DNA of 64,000 nt from Desulforamulus hydrothermalis Lam5 = DSM 18033 (GTDB lineage Bacteria > Bacillota > Desulfotomaculia > Desulfotomaculales > Desulfotomaculaceae): contig NZ_CAOS01000010.1 in assembly GCF_000315365.1 (NCBI RefSeq), positions 1-64,000 of the forward strand, in the 5' to 3' direction. Shown piece by piece: positions 2,938 through 61,555 of the stretch. The first letter of the stretch is position 1. Each line of letters begins with the position of its first letter. The translations under genes and the position numbers were made by a program. The notes below the pieces were generated by a model that ran no database searches, was not told the DNA's origin, and saw only the letters and a program-made list of their open reading frames with translations.

Positions 2938-4872
<1,935 letters not shown>

Positions 4873-5008
4873 TTACATTGACTCCATATTATACCATAAT
4901 TAGTATTCCCTATTCAAGGATATACATTAACAGAAAAATTACAACAAATTATGTTATTGGTTAGTCTAAAAGAAATGGCACCCACAGAGCATGGGCGCCC
5001 ACAGACTG

Positions 5009-5258
5009 TAGACAAATGTCGTAAGACAGTGAGGTGGTCTTATGATCCCCTGTCGGCGACTTGTCGAAGCACCGGTCACAGCACTTGATGAGCGTAAGGA
5101 GCCATGGGGGGGCGCCCACAGGATGTGGGCGCCAGCCGAACCGGGCCAGGATGGCCCGTTTGAGGCGACCCCAAGGGCGACCGGAGCGAATCACAGTGCT
5201 GTCGGTGCGTAGACCGGAGCCAAAGGGGATCATAAACCACCGCTAATGTTTGTCGACA
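5009..5258 (+). repeat. Dispersed palindromic repeat, copy 2
   Basis: A full-length (250 bp) copy between remB and gyrB, bounded by TGTAGACA and TGTCGACA. It contains all family blocks: GAGGTGGTCTTATGATCCCC, GACTTGTCGAAGCACCGGTC, the apical hairpin GGCGCCCAC/GTGGGCGCC, a CGGGCC/GGCCCG stem, and the closing block CCAAAGGGGATCATAAACC. The two ends pair to form one long imperfect hairpin. Related hairpins flank it at 4976-5005 and 5264-5292. Confidence 0.9.
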
Positions 5259-5263
5259 TGCCG

Positions 5264-5292
5264 GTGGCGCCCACGCGCTCTGTGGGCGCCAC
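5264..5292. terminator. GC-rich hairpin flanking repeat copy 2
   Basis: A stem GTGGCGCCCAC/GTGGGCGCCAC followed on the plus strand by TTTAATAAT. A related, less perfect hairpin lies on the other side of the repeat (4976-5005). The arm sequence resembles the repeat's own apical stem, so this may be part of an older repeat copy rather than an independent terminator. Confidence 0.45.
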
Positions 5293-16168: not shown

Positions 16169-16233
16169 CTTGCTAAATACCAGTAAATTAACAAAAATTT
16201 CCCGGGTGGTTTAATGTAAAAACTTCTTCAGAG

Positions 16234-16487
16234 TGTCGACAAACATTATCGGTGGTTGATGATCCCCTTTGGCTCCGGTCTACGCACCGACAGCACTATG
16301 ATTCGCTCCGGTGGCCCTTGGGGTCGCCTCAAACGGGCCATCCTGGCCCGGTTCGGCTGGCGCCCACGTCCTGTGGGCGCCCCCCCAAGGGTTCCTTTCG
16401 CTCATCAAGTGCTGTGACCGGTGCTTCGACAAGTCGCCGGCAGGGGTTCATCAAACCACCTCACTTTGTTTACAACCTTTGGCGACA
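16234..16487 (-). repeat. Dispersed palindromic repeat, copy 3
   Basis: A full-length (254 bp) copy in inverse orientation between rsmG and hsp20, bounded by TGTCGACA and TTTGGCGACA. It carries all family blocks and the apical GGCGCCCACG/TGTGGGCGCC stem. It is flanked by an exact 20-bp direct repeat (16204-16223 and 16493-16512). The right flanking copy is part of an intact terminator. Confidence 0.92.
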
Positions 16488-16492
16488 CTCAG

Positions 16493-16522
16493 GGGTGGTT
16501 TAATGTAAAAACCACCCTTTTT
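16493..16522 (+). terminator. Terminator after rsmG, displaced by repeat copy 3
   Basis: The hairpin GGGTGGTTT/AAAACCACCC followed by T6. The first 20 bases are duplicated exactly on the other side of the repeat at 16204-16223, where the closing arm and T-run are missing. This right copy is therefore the functional one, about 325 bp after the rsmG stop. Confidence 0.8.
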
Positions 16523-20477: not shown

Positions 20478-20515
20478 CTAAGCAGACGGAGTATAATAAC
20501 ACCTCCGTCTCAAAC

Positions 20516-20771
20516 TGTAGACAAAGGTTATAAAACAAAGCGAGGTGGTGTTTATGATCACCTGCCGGCGACTTATCGAGGCACCGGTCACAGCACTTGA
20601 TGAGCGAGAGGAGCCCTTGGGCCGGCGTTCACAGGACGTGGGCGCCGGCCGAACCGGGCCGGGGTGGCCCGGTTGAGGCGACCCCAAGGGCCGCCGCAGC
20701 GAATCATAGTGCTGTCGGTGCGCAGACCGGAGCCAAAGGGGATCATCAACCACCGATAAGGTTTATTGACA
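20516..20771 (+). repeat. Dispersed palindromic repeat, copy 4
   Basis: A full-length (256 bp) copy between DUF554 and degV, bounded by TGTAGACA and TATTGACA. All family blocks are present; the apical stem is slightly altered (GGCGTTCAC/GTGGGCGCC). Related hairpins sharing the start AGACGGAGTAT flank it at 20484-20510 and 20777-20805. Confidence 0.9.
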
Positions 20772-20776
20772 CTCTG

Positions 20777-20812
20777 AGACGGAGTATCAAAACAACTCTG
20801 TCTTTATTTTTG
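20777..20812 (+). terminator. Terminator after DUF554, right of repeat copy 4
   Basis: The hairpin GACGGAGT/ACTCTGTC is followed by a T-rich tract. A sister hairpin GACGGAG/CTCCGTC lies before the repeat at 20484-20510. The two look like diverged duplicates of one terminator. Confidence 0.7.
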
Positions 20813-23859: not shown

Positions 23860-24513
23860 TTGTTTGAAAACCGTATGGCGGCCGGTCAGAAATTGGCAAT
23901 TGCCTTGCAAGAAACAAACCGGCCCGCCGACATTGTTATAGCAATACCCCGCGGCGGAGTTGTAGTAGGCCATCAAGTGGCCCGGGCGCTGGGCATACCC
24001 TTGGATATTATCATTCCGAAAAAAGTTGGAGCGCCCCAAAATCCTGAGGTAGCGGTGGGTGCCGTTACCCAGGACGGAACAGCCATTTATCATCAAGAGT
24101 TGCTCAGCCGCCTGGGATTATCAGAAAAACAACTGCAGCCGGCCGTACAAAAAATTATTGATGAGATAAACAGGCGCACCGCGGCTTACCGTAACAACAG
24201 GCCGGGAGCTAACCTGGCAGGACGGCATGTTATTGTGGTGGACGACGGCATTGCCACCGGTTTTACCATTTTAGCGGCCCTGCAGTCAATTAAAAACAGC
24301 GGCTGCCAATCCGTCACCTTGGCGGTGCCGGTGGCGCCGCCGGAAACCGTGCAGCGGTTGGCGAAAGAAGTGGACCATTTGGTTTGTCTGGTATCCCGAG
24401 AGCCCTTTTACGCCGTAGGGCAATTTTACCTTGATTTCAGTCAGGTCAAAGATGATGAAGTAATAGCTGTTCTTCAACAATATAACTGTGACAACCAAAA
24501 AACCCGCAGCTAG
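23860..24513 (+). CDS. Phosphoribosyltransferase-family protein
   Basis: A 217-residue type I PRTase domain protein. The PRPP-binding loop is VIVVDDGIATGFTI around residues 127-140, and AIPRGGVVVGHQVA near the start binds pyrophosphate in related enzymes. Substrate cannot be told from sequence. It starts at TTG after a G-run, with ATG 23875 possible. Its final codons and stop (KTRS-stop) lie inside the first copy of a duplicated terminator. Confidence 0.87.
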   Translation: MFENRMAAGQKLAIALQETNRPADIVIAIPRGGVVVGHQVARALGIPLDIIIPKKVGAPQNPEVAVGAVTQDGTAIYHQELLSRLGLSEKQLQPAVQKIIDEINRRTAAYRNNRPGANLAGRHVIVVDDGIATGFTILAALQSIKNSGCQSVTLAVPVAPPETVQRLAKEVDHLVCLVSREPFYAVGQFYLDFSQVKDDEVIAVLQQYNCDNQKTRS

Positions 24514-24529
24514 TTGCTGCGGGTCAAAC

Positions 24530-24800
24530 TGTTGCCAAACATTATCGGTGGTTGATGATCCCCTTTGGCTCCGGTCTACGCACCGACAGCACTATGATTC
24601 GCTACGGTGGCCATTGGGGTCGCCTCAAACGGGCCATCCTGGCCCGGTTCGGCTGGCGCCTACGTCCTGTGGGCGCCCCCCCAATGGCTCCTTTCGCTCA
24701 TCAAGTGCTGTAACGGTGCTTCGACAAGTCGCCCACAGGGGATCATCAAACCACCTCCCTTTGTTTTACAACCTTTAACCACCGTTGGTGTTTGTCGACA
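24530..24800 (-). repeat. Dispersed palindromic repeat, copy 5
   Basis: A full-length copy in inverse orientation between convergent genes, bounded by TGTTGCCA and TGTCGACA. After the usual AACCTTT it has an extra fragment AACCACCGTTGGTG that resembles the opposite terminus, so it may be a compound copy. Its flanks are a 28-bp direct repeat (24497-24524 and 24800-24827, one mismatch) that includes an entire terminator hairpin. Confidence 0.92.
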
Positions 24801-24804
24801 AAAA

Positions 24805-24832
24805 ACCCGCAGTTAGTTGCTGCGGGTTTTCT
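24805..24832. terminator. Bidirectional terminator shared by the PRTase gene and yyaC
   Basis: The stem CCCGCAG/CTGCGGG with T-runs on both sides serves convergent genes. An identical hairpin with one loop change lies at 24502-24523. Both genes use it for their C-terminal codons and stops. Confidence 0.88.
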
Positions 24833-25418
24833 TTTGCAATATTTGCGCGGTTTGCAGCAGGCCGTCGGCAATTAGGTTGGCCAGCCGCATCACCAGGTTT
24901 AGCCGGGTATTTTGCAGCACCAGATACTCCAGGAAGCCGCCCACATTAACCACCCCGGTAATATAAAACTGACCCACGGCCGGCAGGGATTTATTTACCC
25001 CGGCACCGGGCAGCAGAGGACCGTCGCCAATGTTCACACAGCCAACATTTTCCAGGTGGCCCAGACAAGCATCAACTGCAATTACCGGTGCAGCCGGGTG
25101 CCTGGTTATAATCTCAGACAGTTTTTCATTCATATTACCGGCATGCACAGGGTCATCCAGTGTGCCGTAAACCCTAAACCGATGCCCCTCGGCAGCAGCC
25201 AGCTTGCTTCCCACCAAAGGACCCAGGCAGTCACCGGTAGACCGGTCGGTGCCGATACAAACAATTACCACCTCATCATCACTGCGGATGCCGCAGGCCT
25301 GCAACCGGCCGGTTAAATCCAGGGCAAAACTGTCCACAGCAAAGGGATCTTCCACACTGATTCTGGTTTTTGGGGCTAATACTGCTTGCTGGTGTAAGGT
25401 ATCCAAATGAACGGACAT
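24813..25418 (-). CDS. yyaC: Spore protease YyaC
   Basis: About 201 residues of the YyaC (DUF1256) family, related in fold to the germination protease GPR and found in endospore formers. Conserved VIVCIGTDRSTGDCLGPLVG and VIAVDACLGHLENVG segments identify it. ATG 25418 is preferred over an upstream ATG because GAGAGG lies 9 bp before it. Its last codons (KKTRSN-stop) are encoded by the shared terminator. Confidence 0.92.
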   Translation of the reverse strand: MSVHLDTLHQQAVLAPKTRISVEDPFAVDSFALDLTGRLQACGIRSDDEVVIVCIGTDRSTGDCLGPLVGSKLAAAEGHRFRVYGTLDDPVHAGNMNEKLSEIITRHPAAPVIAVDACLGHLENVGCVNIGDGPLLPGAGVNKSLPAVGQFYITGVVNVGGFLEYLVLQNTRLNLVMRLANLIADGLLQTAQILQKKTRSN

Positions 25419-25566
25419 CCTATCACATCCTCTCAAGGCAAACATACTATATATATGCCCCGTCTATGCATTGTTTATTCACTTACTGATCAATTTTCTT
25501 TCAGGTTCAGCCGGCACCCTGAACGGCATAGTATTAGGAAGAAAGCAAAACTTAAGGGGTGGCGGC

Positions 25567-33757: not shown

Positions 33758-33991
33758 ATGAAACGTGAACGCGGACGCAGAGGCAAAAAGCGTGTTTGCA
33801 GCTTCTGTGTAGATAAAGCAACCACCATTGACTATAAAGAAGTATCTAAGCTAAAGAAATACATTACCGAGCGCGGCAAAATTTTACCCCGCCGCATTTC
33901 CGGCAACTGTGCGCATCACCAACGGATGCTGACCACTGCCATTAAGCGGGCTCGCAATATTGCTTTACTGCCCTTTACCGCAGAATCCTAA
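33758..33991 (+). CDS. rpsR: 30S ribosomal protein S18
   Basis: A 77-residue S18 with [20 protein letters not shown] and the conserved [20 protein letters not shown]. It retains four cysteine/histidine positions of a zinc-type variant (CSFC, CAHH). It starts at ATG after AAGGAGG and is followed at once by a terminator. Confidence 0.97.
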
Positions 33992-34015
33992 AAAACGGCC
34001 GAAAGGCCGTTTTGA
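33992..34015 (+). terminator. Terminator after rpsR
   Basis: AAAACGGCC/GGCCGTTTT with a GAAA loop, directly after the rpsR stop. Confidence 0.9.
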
Positions 34016-34019
34016 AATT

Positions 34020-34122
34020 ATTTGCAAGGTTGTAAAACAAAATGAGGTGGTTTTATAATCCCCCTGCCGGTGCGTAAACCGGAGCCAAAGGGGGTTACAA
34101 ACCACCGATAATGTTTGTCGAA
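34020..34122 (+). repeat. Dispersed repeat, copy 7 (internally deleted, 103 bp)
   Basis: It keeps the left end (AAGGTTGTAAAACAAAATGA, GGTGGTTTTATAATCCCCC) and the right end (GGTGCGTAAACCGGAGCC, ACAAACCACCGATAATGTTT, TTTGTCGAAA) but lacks the central 150 bp. Just after it, GGAAGCACCGGTAAC followed by GGTGCTTTAATT resembles an internal family block turned into a hairpin, perhaps a further remnant. Confidence 0.85.
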
Positions 34123-34216
34123 ACCTTGGAAGCACCGGTAACGGTGCTTTAATTATTGGACAAGATAGCCGGTTCAATTTATAATAATAGCAAAAATAAA
34201 AACGGAGAAAAAACAC

Positions 34217-43649: not shown

Positions 43650-43689
43650 ACAGTAACGGCCTCCGTTTAATCAAACGGAGGCCTCAGAT

Positions 43690-43944
43690 TGTCGCCAAAG
43701 GTTGTAAAACAAAGTGAGGTGGTTTTATGATCCCCTGTCGGCGACTTGTCGAAGCACCGGTAACAGCACATGATGAGCGAAAGGAGCCATTGGGGTGGCG
43801 CCCACAGGACGTGGGCGCCAGCCGAACCGGGCCAGGATGGCCCGTTTGAGGCGACCCCAATGGCGACCGTAGCGAATCATAGTGCTGTCGGTGCGTAGAC
43901 CGGAGCCAAAGGGGATCATAAACCACCGATAATGTTTGTCCACA
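43690..43944 (+). repeat. Dispersed palindromic repeat, copy 8
   Basis: A full-length (255 bp) copy between scfB and the M23 gene, bounded by TGTCGCCA and TGTCCACA. It is the cleanest example of the long hairpin: GGTGGTTTTATGATCCCCTG pairs with GGGGATCATAAACCACC, GAGCCATTGGGG-side with CCCCAATGGC, around the apical GGCGCCCAC/GTGGGCGCC stem. Matching terminator hairpins flank it at 43658-43683 and 43951-43977. Confidence 0.93.
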
Positions 43945-43950
43945 CCCTGC

Positions 43951-43986
43951 GGTCTCCGTTTGAGTTAAACGGAGACCTTTTTAATT
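43951..43986 (+). terminator. Terminator after scfB, right of repeat copy 8
   Basis: GGTCTCCGTTT/AAACGGAGACC followed by T5. Its twin at 43658-43683 reads GGCCTCCGTTT/AAACGGAGGCC; the single base-pair difference is compensatory. Confidence 0.9.
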
Positions 43987-50807: not shown

Positions 50808-51661
50808 TGAAAATTGCTTTTTCCACCTGTCCCAACGATACCTTTGTTTTCTATGCCTGGGTTCACCGTCTGATCCCCGGCGCACCCCCGCCGGCTGTTG
50901 CCTATGCGGATATCGACATCACCAACAGCCTGGTGGCCGGCGAAAACGGGCCGGATATAGCAAAAATTTCTTTTGCCGCCCTGCCCTGGGCGTTGCCCCG
51001 CTATGCCTTGCTGCCATGCGGCGGGGCCCTGGGCCGGGGTTGCGGGCCCTTGCTGCTGGCCGCAAACAAAGCAGGCAGTCCCGATCACCCGGCCGGTCTG
51101 GCCGGTCGACGGGTAGCGGTGCCCAGCGAACGGTCAACCGCATACCTGCTGTTCCGCCTGTGGGCAGCCCGGCATGTGCCGGGGGGAGTGGGCGAGATCG
51201 TGGTATTGCCCTTTCATGCCATTATGCCGGCGGTACGGGACGGCCTGGTGGATGCCGGACTGGTGATTCACGAGGCGCGGTTTACCTATCATACCTATGG
51301 ATTAAACATGCTGGTGGATTTAGGCAACTGGTGGGAGGCTGATACCGGCTTGCCCATCCCCCTGGGAGCCATAGTGGCCAAACGTGATTTAGACCTGACA
51401 GCCATTGCCGGTTGGCTGCGGGCATCCGTGCAATATGCCTGGCGGCATCCGGCCGAACCCATGCCGTACATCATGCGCCATGCTCAGGAAATGTCGCCGG
51501 AGGTGGCCCAGGCCCATATCAACCTGTATGTTAATCGGTTTACCGAACATATCGGCGAGGAAGGTTACCGGGCGGCGGCTGCCCTGCTGGGCCGTGCCGC
51601 TCAGGCGGGCCTGGTGCCTGAGGCGGATTTATCTGCGTTGCGTCAGGCAGTAAACATTTAA
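50804..51661 (+). CDS. mqnD: 1,4-dihydroxy-6-naphthoate synthase MqnD
   Basis: A 285-residue periplasmic-binding-protein-fold enzyme of the futalosine menaquinone pathway. KIAFSTCPNDTFVFYAWVH at the start, DITNSLVAGENGPDIAKISF and GLVIHEARFTYHTYGL are diagnostic. It is translationally coupled to mqnB. Its stop touches a terminator hairpin that is duplicated around a mini-repeat. Confidence 0.95.
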   Translation: MMKIAFSTCPNDTFVFYAWVHRLIPGAPPPAVAYADIDITNSLVAGENGPDIAKISFAALPWALPRYALLPCGGALGRGCGPLLLAANKAGSPDHPAGLAGRRVAVPSERSTAYLLFRLWAARHVPGGVGEIVVLPFHAIMPAVRDGLVDAGLVIHEARFTYHTYGLNMLVDLGNWWEADTGLPIPLGAIVAKRDLDLTAIAGWLRASVQYAWRHPAEPMPYIMRHAQEMSPEVAQAHINLYVNRFTEHIGEEGYRAAAALLGRAAQAGLVPEADLSALRQAVNI

Positions 51662-51684
51662 AGGAGGCAAGCGCCTCTACAGAG

Positions 51685-51725
51685 TATCGACAAACCTTAT
51701 CGGTGGTTTATAACCTCTGTCTACA
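51685..51725 (-). repeat. Dispersed repeat, copy 9 (ends-only mini form, 41 bp)
   Basis: Only the two termini remain: TATCGACAAACCTTATCGG, TGGTTTATAACC and CTCTGTCTACA. It is flanked by an exact 18-bp direct repeat AAAGGAGGCAAGCGCCTC at 51660-51677 and 51731-51748. Each copy is itself a hairpin (GAGGC/GCCTC). Confidence 0.85.
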
Positions 51726-51749
51726 GTCTGAAAGGAGGCAAGCGCCTCC

Positions 51750-52601
51750 TTAGCTATATAATAAGGTTAACTCATTGGCAATGGAGTTTAACTTTTCTAT
51801 TTCCGCAACCATTTCCTGCAGCGCTTTGGATAACTGTTCGCTGCCTGTGGCACAGCTGCTGTGAATATGCTGCAACCTGTTCGTTGGCCTGCTGGATATC
51901 CTTTATAACCAAGCCTACCTGCTTAACCGATTGGGCGCTGTTGTCCGCCAGTTTCTTTACCTCATTGGGTACCACGTTAAAGCCCTTGCCATTTTCGCCG
52001 GCCCCGACAGGCTTCAATGGCGGGCATTTAAGCCTAACAATTTAGTCATGTCGGCTATACCTTTAATTAAAGCTAAAATTTCCTCCGTATTTGCTGCTTT
52101 TTTTTGTGAGTCCAGGGCGGTTGCCGCCATAACACTGCTGGTGCCGGCCTGTTCTTGGGAAGAGGCTGCCATTTCTTCAATAAGAGCCGTAAGAGTTTCA
52201 AGGCCGTTTTTCAACTGCAGGGCGGTGCTTTTCGCTTTCATTTCGCTTTCATCCCGGGCCAGCCGCAACTCAATAACCTGTGCAGCAAAGGTTGCAATAG
52301 GTTTGACCAGTTCCGGGTCGCCTGTAATGCCAATAACGCCAACCCGTTCATTGTTATATTTTATGATAACGTTAGCACCGGCACGGACATTCTCTAATTT
52401 TGCCGCTTCTTCTTTGGTTACGCCATAATAATCCATTTCACCTGCCATCATGCGTTTGGAAACAGCGTGTACCGAGCCTTCCCGGCCGGCTATGGTACTT
52501 GCAATAACAACGCCGCCGTGACCGAAAACAGTAACTTCTTCATTAACCTGGCGTTTTATCATGTTTACCATCAGATGAGCAAAATCTTTATTAATTTCCA
52601 T
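51750..52601 (-). pseudogene. Frameshifted chemoreceptor-like protein (diacid-recognition plus MCP signalling domain)
   Basis: The start at 52601 reads MEINKDFAHLMVNMIKRQVN then VFGHGGVVIAST and GREGSVH, a sugar-diacid-recognition (CdaR-type) sensor. Then EEMAASSQEQAG and KLLGLNA begin an MCP signalling domain. The frame breaks after LLGLNA near 52017-52022 and again within about 12 bp, before AGENGKGFNVVPNEVKKLAD. A third shift occurs near 51855-51865, after which QLSKALQEMVAEIEKLNSIA runs to a stop at 51750-51752. No membrane segment is present. Decayed soluble receptor, or assembly errors. Confidence 0.82.
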
Positions 52602-61220: not shown

Positions 61221-61272
61221 ACGGATAATTATTGTATCTCAAATAACAGCTGCCTCCGGAAGGCGCTCAGGC

Positions 61273-61519
61273 TGTAGACAAAGGAAAGACACGGTGGTTT
61301 TATGAACCCCTGCCGGCGACTTGTCGAAGCACCGGTTACAGCACTTGATGAGCGAAAGGAGCCGTTGGGGTGGCGCTCACAGGATGTGGGCACCAGCCGA
61401 ACCGGGCCAGGAGGGCCCGTTTGAGGCGACCCCAAGGGCGACCGTAGCGAATCATAGTGCTGTCGGTGCGTAGATCGGAGCCAAAGGGGATCATAAACCA
61501 CAGCTAATATTTGTCGACA
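61273..61519 (+). repeat. Dispersed palindromic repeat, copy 12
   Basis: A full-length (247 bp) copy within the leader of the thiamine operon, bounded by TGTAGACA and TGTCGACA. All family blocks are present. It separates the TPP aptamer from the intact terminator. A related but imperfect hairpin half lies before it (61248-61267). Confidence 0.92.
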
Positions 61520-61524
61520 ACCTG

Positions 61525-61555
61525 AGCTGCCTCATGAAGGCAGCTTTTATTTTTG
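61525..61555 (+). terminator. Leader terminator of the thiamine operon
   Basis: AGCTGCC/GGCAGCT with loop TCATGAA, followed by TTTATTTTT. It is the likely riboswitch-controlled terminator. AGCTGCCT is repeated before the inserted element at 61248. Confidence 0.85.

Follow-up and report, generated by a model that had tools for sequence, protein, structure and literature searches.

The window analysed here is a stretch of 64,000 nucleotides of the Desulforamulus hydrothermalis genome (2.69 Mb, referred to as G000). At the locus under study, two convergent genes are separated by a repeat, copy 5 of its family in the window, which is enclosed by two copies of one terminator hairpin. The features are the following:

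23860..24513, plus strand: phosphoribosyltransferase gene (PF00156), terminating in the left hairpin copy
24496..24524, no strand: first of the two terminator hairpins, forming the left direct repeat and containing the phosphoribosyltransferase stop codon
24525..24798, plus strand: MITE copy 5, 274 bp, with left end CAAACTGTTGCCAAAC; at its right end stands a left-type terminus that is reversed and truncated
24799..24827, no strand: second of the two terminator hairpins, forming the right direct repeat and containing the yyaC-like stop codon according to the ORF list
24813..25445, minus strand: yyaC-like (DUF1256) gene (PF06866), convergent, terminating in the right hairpin copy

The direct repeat is 29 nt long, with the left copy CAAAAAACCCGCAGCTAGTTGCTGCGGGT and the right copy CAAAAAACCCGCAGTTAGTTGCTGCGGGT. 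The two copies are the same at 28 of 29 bases and the single mismatch is located in the hairpin loop, so that the repeat can be written as one sequence, CAAAAAACCCGCAG[C/T]TAGTTGCTGCGGGT, present twice. The first-pass annotation had described a 28-bp repeat with one mismatch: the two near-identical copies and the mismatch stand, whereas the length and borders are corrected to 29 nt starting at 24496 and 24799. It had also placed the terminator stem and the end of the upstream gene, stop codon included, in the repeat, and the TAG of the phosphoribosyltransferase gene does lie within 24496-24524. The right copy contains the last codons and the stop of the convergent yyaC-like gene. The stop codons of both convergent genes are thus situated inside the hairpin. 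The right end of copy 5 is atypical and degenerate, being a reversed left-type terminus without its last ~6 bases (ACTCTG). By comparison with the other copies, this truncation would account for the ~5-6 additional A by which one side of the repeat exceeds a duplication symmetric about the dyad.

The genome contains 40 or more strong copies of the window repeat. Its ends are terminal inverted repeats (TIRs) of ~15 bp, CAGA[G/C]TGTNGACAAA, and 158 TIR-like sites were detected in G000, against 4 for the reversed pattern; the copy number in this 2.7-Mb genome is roughly 80. The element sizes deduced from TIR pairing range from 42 to 270 bp, mostly ~265 bp but also ~114 bp and 42-57 bp. An apparent 54-bp size class was rejected as mostly an artefact of internal TIR-like sequence. 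A consensus of the full-size element (~265 bp) was built from 47 copies and displays a strong self-folding (DNA z = -10.6). No transposase gene was found inside the MITE copies. The other members of the family delimited in the window are the following:

5002..5263, minus strand: MITE copy, flanking hairpins 4975-5001 and 5264-5291 (diverged)
16229..16492, plus strand: MITE copy, flanking repeats 16204-16228 (part of the stem lost) and 16493-16519
20511..20776, minus strand: MITE copy, flanking hairpins 20484-20510 and 20777-20803
43685..43949, minus strand: MITE copy, flanking hairpins 43657-43684 and 43950-43978
51680..51730, no strand: MITE deletion derivative of 51 bp, flanking hairpins 51660-51679 and 51731-51752
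61268..61524, minus strand: MITE copy, flanking hairpins 61248-61267 and 61525-61545

A diverged and shortened copy is also located at 33990-34160, between the unlike hairpins AACGGCCGAAAGGCCGTTTT and AAGCACCGGTAACGGTGCTT.

The flanks were analysed for 60 distinct insertions, namely those recovered in the stretches around TIR matches. In nearly all of these 60 paired copies of G000, the flanks are two copies of one complete hairpin, which is specific to the locus (for example AAAAGTGGGTGATTTACCCACTTTT and AAACGCCACCAGCCGAAGCGGTGGCGTTT at other copies). The flanking-repeat score of the 60 copies has a median of 19 and a minimum of 9, against a mean of 2.2 and a maximum of 10 for randomly paired left and right flanks. 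The paired hairpins differ by 6.3% on average (12 of 46 pairs are identical), and the MITE insertions of G000 are therefore old. A strict count, restricted to pairs of equal length, gives 0 stem-compensatory changes between hairpin copies. In the pair 43657-43684 and 43950-43978, which is of unequal length, a paired stem change that preserves both hairpins was seen by eye, as if both still served as terminators. At one further terminator, a 265-bp copy in D. putei (L156) faces a 57-bp copy in G000 (L109, C13:64099-64155) with flanks 94% identical; this is an old insertion common to D. putei and G000 that was internally altered later.

The geometry of the duplication was examined by joining the flanks so as to restore the empty site. 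In this arrangement the dyad of the hairpin lies at the centre of the duplicated stretch: the stem arms are equal at 61 of the 77 clean sites and at most 1 bp apart at 73 of 77. The duplication usually has its border close to where the stem meets the A/T tracts, and stems with complementary A/T tracts reach up to 9 bp past the duplication. The duplication length is correlated with the total hairpin length (r 0.56), and a regression on the length of the loop shows a weak dependence (slope 0.29, p 0.09). A T- or A-tract is present at 49 of the 60 MITE sites and at 30 of 34 IS sites, and the hairpin is located at the 3' end of a gene at 50 of 60 MITE sites. These tracts and gene ends indicate that the targets are mostly intrinsic terminators.

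Autonomous elements with the same termini were detected in congeners. The genome G008 contains five IS copies of 1607 bp with the 15-bp ends of the MITE type, each enclosed in exact whole-hairpin repeats, and D. putei (G001) contains one IS of 1604 bp with the same 15-bp ends. Both elements encode one transposase, have matching ends (CAGA[CG]TG...GACAAA) and are flanked by exact hairpin repeats of 21-27 bp. Their transposases reach 446.3 and 456.1 bits with the IS1182 model NF033551 (cut-off 270), and PF13751 and PF05598 are also above cut-off. The flanking repeats fall within the direct-repeat range of the IS1182 family, 2-60 bp (given by ISfinder and cited in PMC7335449). On the model, the TIRs and the direct repeats together, the G008 and D. 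putei elements are assigned to this family. The 15-bp ends of the MITE equal those of these IS1182-family IS. Short, non-coding, multi-copy and carrying the termini of an autonomous IS, the window repeat is, judged by its sequence, a MITE of an IS1182-family element. The first-pass annotation had proposed that the long direct repeat was a target-site duplication left by insertion at a terminator hairpin, a proposal that nearly all the other copies and the autonomous elements support.

The partner transposase is absent from the G000 assembly (best match 17 bits), and no long autonomous copy with matching flanks was found in the retrieved parts of this genome; the autonomous partner may have been lost or may be unassembled. 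For a MITE, such a partner is usually found in the same genome, but its presence there is not a requirement. Two IS1182-like transposases of G000 were rejected as partners, as their loci have no matching TIR and they belong to a distant group in the transposase tree. Phage records gave no match to the element. At one locus of G008 (L143), the IS copy lies between matches to group II intron D1-D4 at 704-1002 and 3543-3840, on opposite strands. Some group II introns likewise target terminators, and this neighbourhood may have been hit repeatedly.

Full-length relatives were also found in Oscillibacter valericigenes, Tenericutes bacterium MO-XQ, Alkalithermobacter, Acholeplasmatales, uncultured Clostridia, the congener G004 and Enterococcus plasmids. 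The repeats around them, 17-34 bp long, are whole hairpins and agree exactly or nearly so; 28 of 34 flanking pairs of the IS are identical. Most of the IS1182 copies without a matching pair, inspected one by one, are still enclosed by two hairpins that are unlike each other (L181, L187, L188, L216 and L229). These are probable footprints of recombination between IS copies and could be used for tracing rearrangements. Among the few remaining copies, just one flank has a hairpin or no score could be given. A tree of 30 transposases, with few rows in the ISCfr1-like and IS1272/ISSau3-like groups and some long branches, places the 18 duplicators on one side of a single branch (support 100/99), apart from these two groups. 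The duplicating transposases thus form one clade, separate from the IS1272/ISSau3-like and the ISCfr1-like elements.

The core of MITE copy 5 matches the Rfam family TwoAYGGAY (RF01731) above the gathering score, at 24573-24726 on the minus strand. Matches above this score are also present in all five further 265-bp copies scanned in G000 and in one D. putei copy; besides the window copy, the loci with a match in the MITE core are L002, L004, L009, L013, L019 and L156. All six TwoAYGGAY matches scored in G000 fall within MITE copies, and a locus of a distant genome (L271) has MITE-type ends and a whole-hairpin repeat around its match. Elsewhere, the matches mostly have other, long inverted-repeat ends (e.g. 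L252, L278 and other loci of the phylum), and several palindromic repeat families may therefore share this core. TwoAYGGAY was published as a candidate regulatory RNA, for which CsrA binding was suggested (PMC4333381). Whereas it was proposed as an RNA, in G000 the motif makes up the inner part of a mobile element, and this calls its reading as an RNA gene into question.

Empty sites were available for the window locus and for plasmid-borne relatives. The first-pass annotation had suggested looking for a related strain lacking the copy, where a single segment was expected. Between the same two convergent genes, D. putei (G001), G003 and G005 have exactly one hairpin, the sequence of which has diverged. 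The annotation thus withstood its own refuting condition, an empty site with both hairpins or with neither. An exact match between the empty-site hairpin and the flanking hairpins is provided by plasmids from two strains of one species, Enterococcus raffinosus: TGGTATATCCATCGGATATGC is present once in pF162_2_1 and twice, around a 1536-bp element, in p1_Er676. The empty site of the L239 type is covered by 85 Enterococcus plasmid records, which represent one place, and both records read have one hairpin. The pELF-type plasmids of E. faecium were rejected as an exact empty site: they possess a single hairpin and deviate by 4-5 nt immediately downstream, and E. raffinosus is for this reason the only exact case.

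DDE transposases join the two 3' ends of the element to target bonds that lie a fixed distance apart, and the resulting duplications are therefore usually of fixed length. The length of the target-site duplication is thus normally a property of the transposase; here it is set by the target, which points to an enzyme acting on DNA structure. The 29-nt direct repeat is very probably the target-site duplication of a non-autonomous IS1182-type MITE, the transposase of which would read a hairpin-forming inverted repeat and not a base sequence. The IS1182 ends, the hairpin on both sides, the dyad symmetry, the single-hairpin empty sites and the single clade are the observed parts of this explanation.

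As to the mechanism, the usual target would be a Rho-independent terminator hairpin, and we infer that it is extruded as a cruciform. Both transposon ends would attack the 5' feet of this cruciform, two bonds that would be spatially close whatever the length of the hairpin. Gap repair would then copy each single-stranded hairpin arm and the entire hairpin would be doubled, so that the length of the repeat (17-34 bp) would track the hairpin. Because stems with A/T extensions run up to 9 bp past the duplication, an attack at the foot would be valid only for a partly extruded junction, and partial extrusion would explain cuts at the same rung within longer stems. We lean slightly towards a broader view, in which a whole clade of IS1182 transposases would act by this structure-directed route into cruciforms via their 5' feet, with the hairpin as target-site duplication and the length set by the target; sister clades would differ in the foot attacked, the 5' foot leading to duplication and the 3' foot to replacement as in IS1272. 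As recent exact copies occur in culturable bacteria, the cruciform question is directly testable. An element landing at a gene end would leave a terminator to each of the two neighbour genes, and the insertion would hence be nearly harmless; this suggests a route to ~80 copies in a 2.7-Mb genome with little harm and would help to explain this number.

The main rival concerns the cruciform step and leaves the MITE, the IS1182 assignment and the whole-hairpin duplication unchanged. A transposase dimer could bind both arms of the palindrome in linear duplex DNA and cut symmetrically outside them, without extrusion. A symmetric or flexible dimer would also yield a dyad-symmetric duplication, but the targets have no arm sequence in common, and the duplication lengths take nearly all values from 15 to 31, that is all helical phases, which would be hard to accommodate in a rigid duplex complex. 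We consider recognition of the linear palindrome rather unlikely.

Two other explanations bear on the duplication itself. Back-to-back terminators are frequent for convergent genes, and each gene of the window locus ends in its own hairpin; the element could thus have been inserted between two ancestral terminators, the likeness of which was kept by gene conversion. This history is highly improbable, since the hairpin is doubled at nearly all copies with locus-specific sequences, even where just one gene ends, and is doubled exactly around recent IS copies; a pre-existing pair was ruled out by the single hairpin found between the same genes in the congeners and at the other empty sites. Still less credible is a replacement of the type known for IS1272, in which the target hairpin would be removed and the flanking hairpins would belong to the element, even if IS1272 is a hairpin-targeting member of the same family (PMC5678879, PMC4923244). 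The element is constant whereas its flanking hairpins vary by locus, and the empty-site hairpin of E. raffinosus is exactly the flanking one; stem-loop replacement was rejected, the hairpin being doubled at nearly all scored sites and single at the empty sites.

Long and variable direct repeats are also a property of the IS1634/IS1549 group. The elements described here are alike in this respect, but membership of the IS1634 family was rejected, as the transposase has 23.7 bits against a cut-off of 100. Within the IS1182 family, the transposase of ISEfa7 from Enterococcus (TIR CAGACTGTAGACAAA) falls inside the duplicating clade. The ISEfa7 copies examined are interrupted or have unlike flanks, and its sisters L238 and L239 have whole-hairpin repeats of 21 and 22 bp. 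The ISSau3-like elements, which we regard as related to IS1272, belong to a clade distinct from the duplicators.

Targeting of hairpins by IS1182 elements (ISCbo5, IS1272) and variable repeats of 2-60 bp are already published. For ISCbo5 (= ISbma2), an IS1182-family element of Clostridium botulinum group III and C. novyi-NT, the parts of the paper drawn on here report that every insertion site except one is a hairpin at a gene end, taken as a transcription stop (Skarin et al. 2011, PMC3098183). ISCbo5 thus shares with the window element both the family and the hairpin targets at gene ends. It is an autonomous IS, whereas a MITE is described here, and the same parts of that paper mention a "surrounding hairpin" without a duplication rule, a dyad analysis or an empty-site comparison; ISCbo5 was not among the sequences placed in our transposase tree. 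In the literature searched, we found neither the whole-hairpin, dyad-centred repeat as a clade-wide rule nor a MITE family so spread, although subscription papers and ISfinder may hold an earlier notice.

IS1272 and TnSha1 target hairpins, often terminators, by structure and not by sequence (Furi et al. 2016, PMC4923244; Wan et al. 2017, PMC5678879). Hairpin targeting is common to these elements and to those studied here; with IS1272 the target hairpin is reported to be deleted or replaced without target-site duplication (PMC4923244, PMC5678879), whereas here the whole hairpin is duplicated. Such a duplication was drawn by Wan et al. (2017, PMC5678879) as a hypothetical pathway b. Our findings bear out this pathway, which was only sketched as a possibility in 2017, and a duplication as long as the hairpin offers an account of the unusual 2-60 bp range of the IS1182 family.
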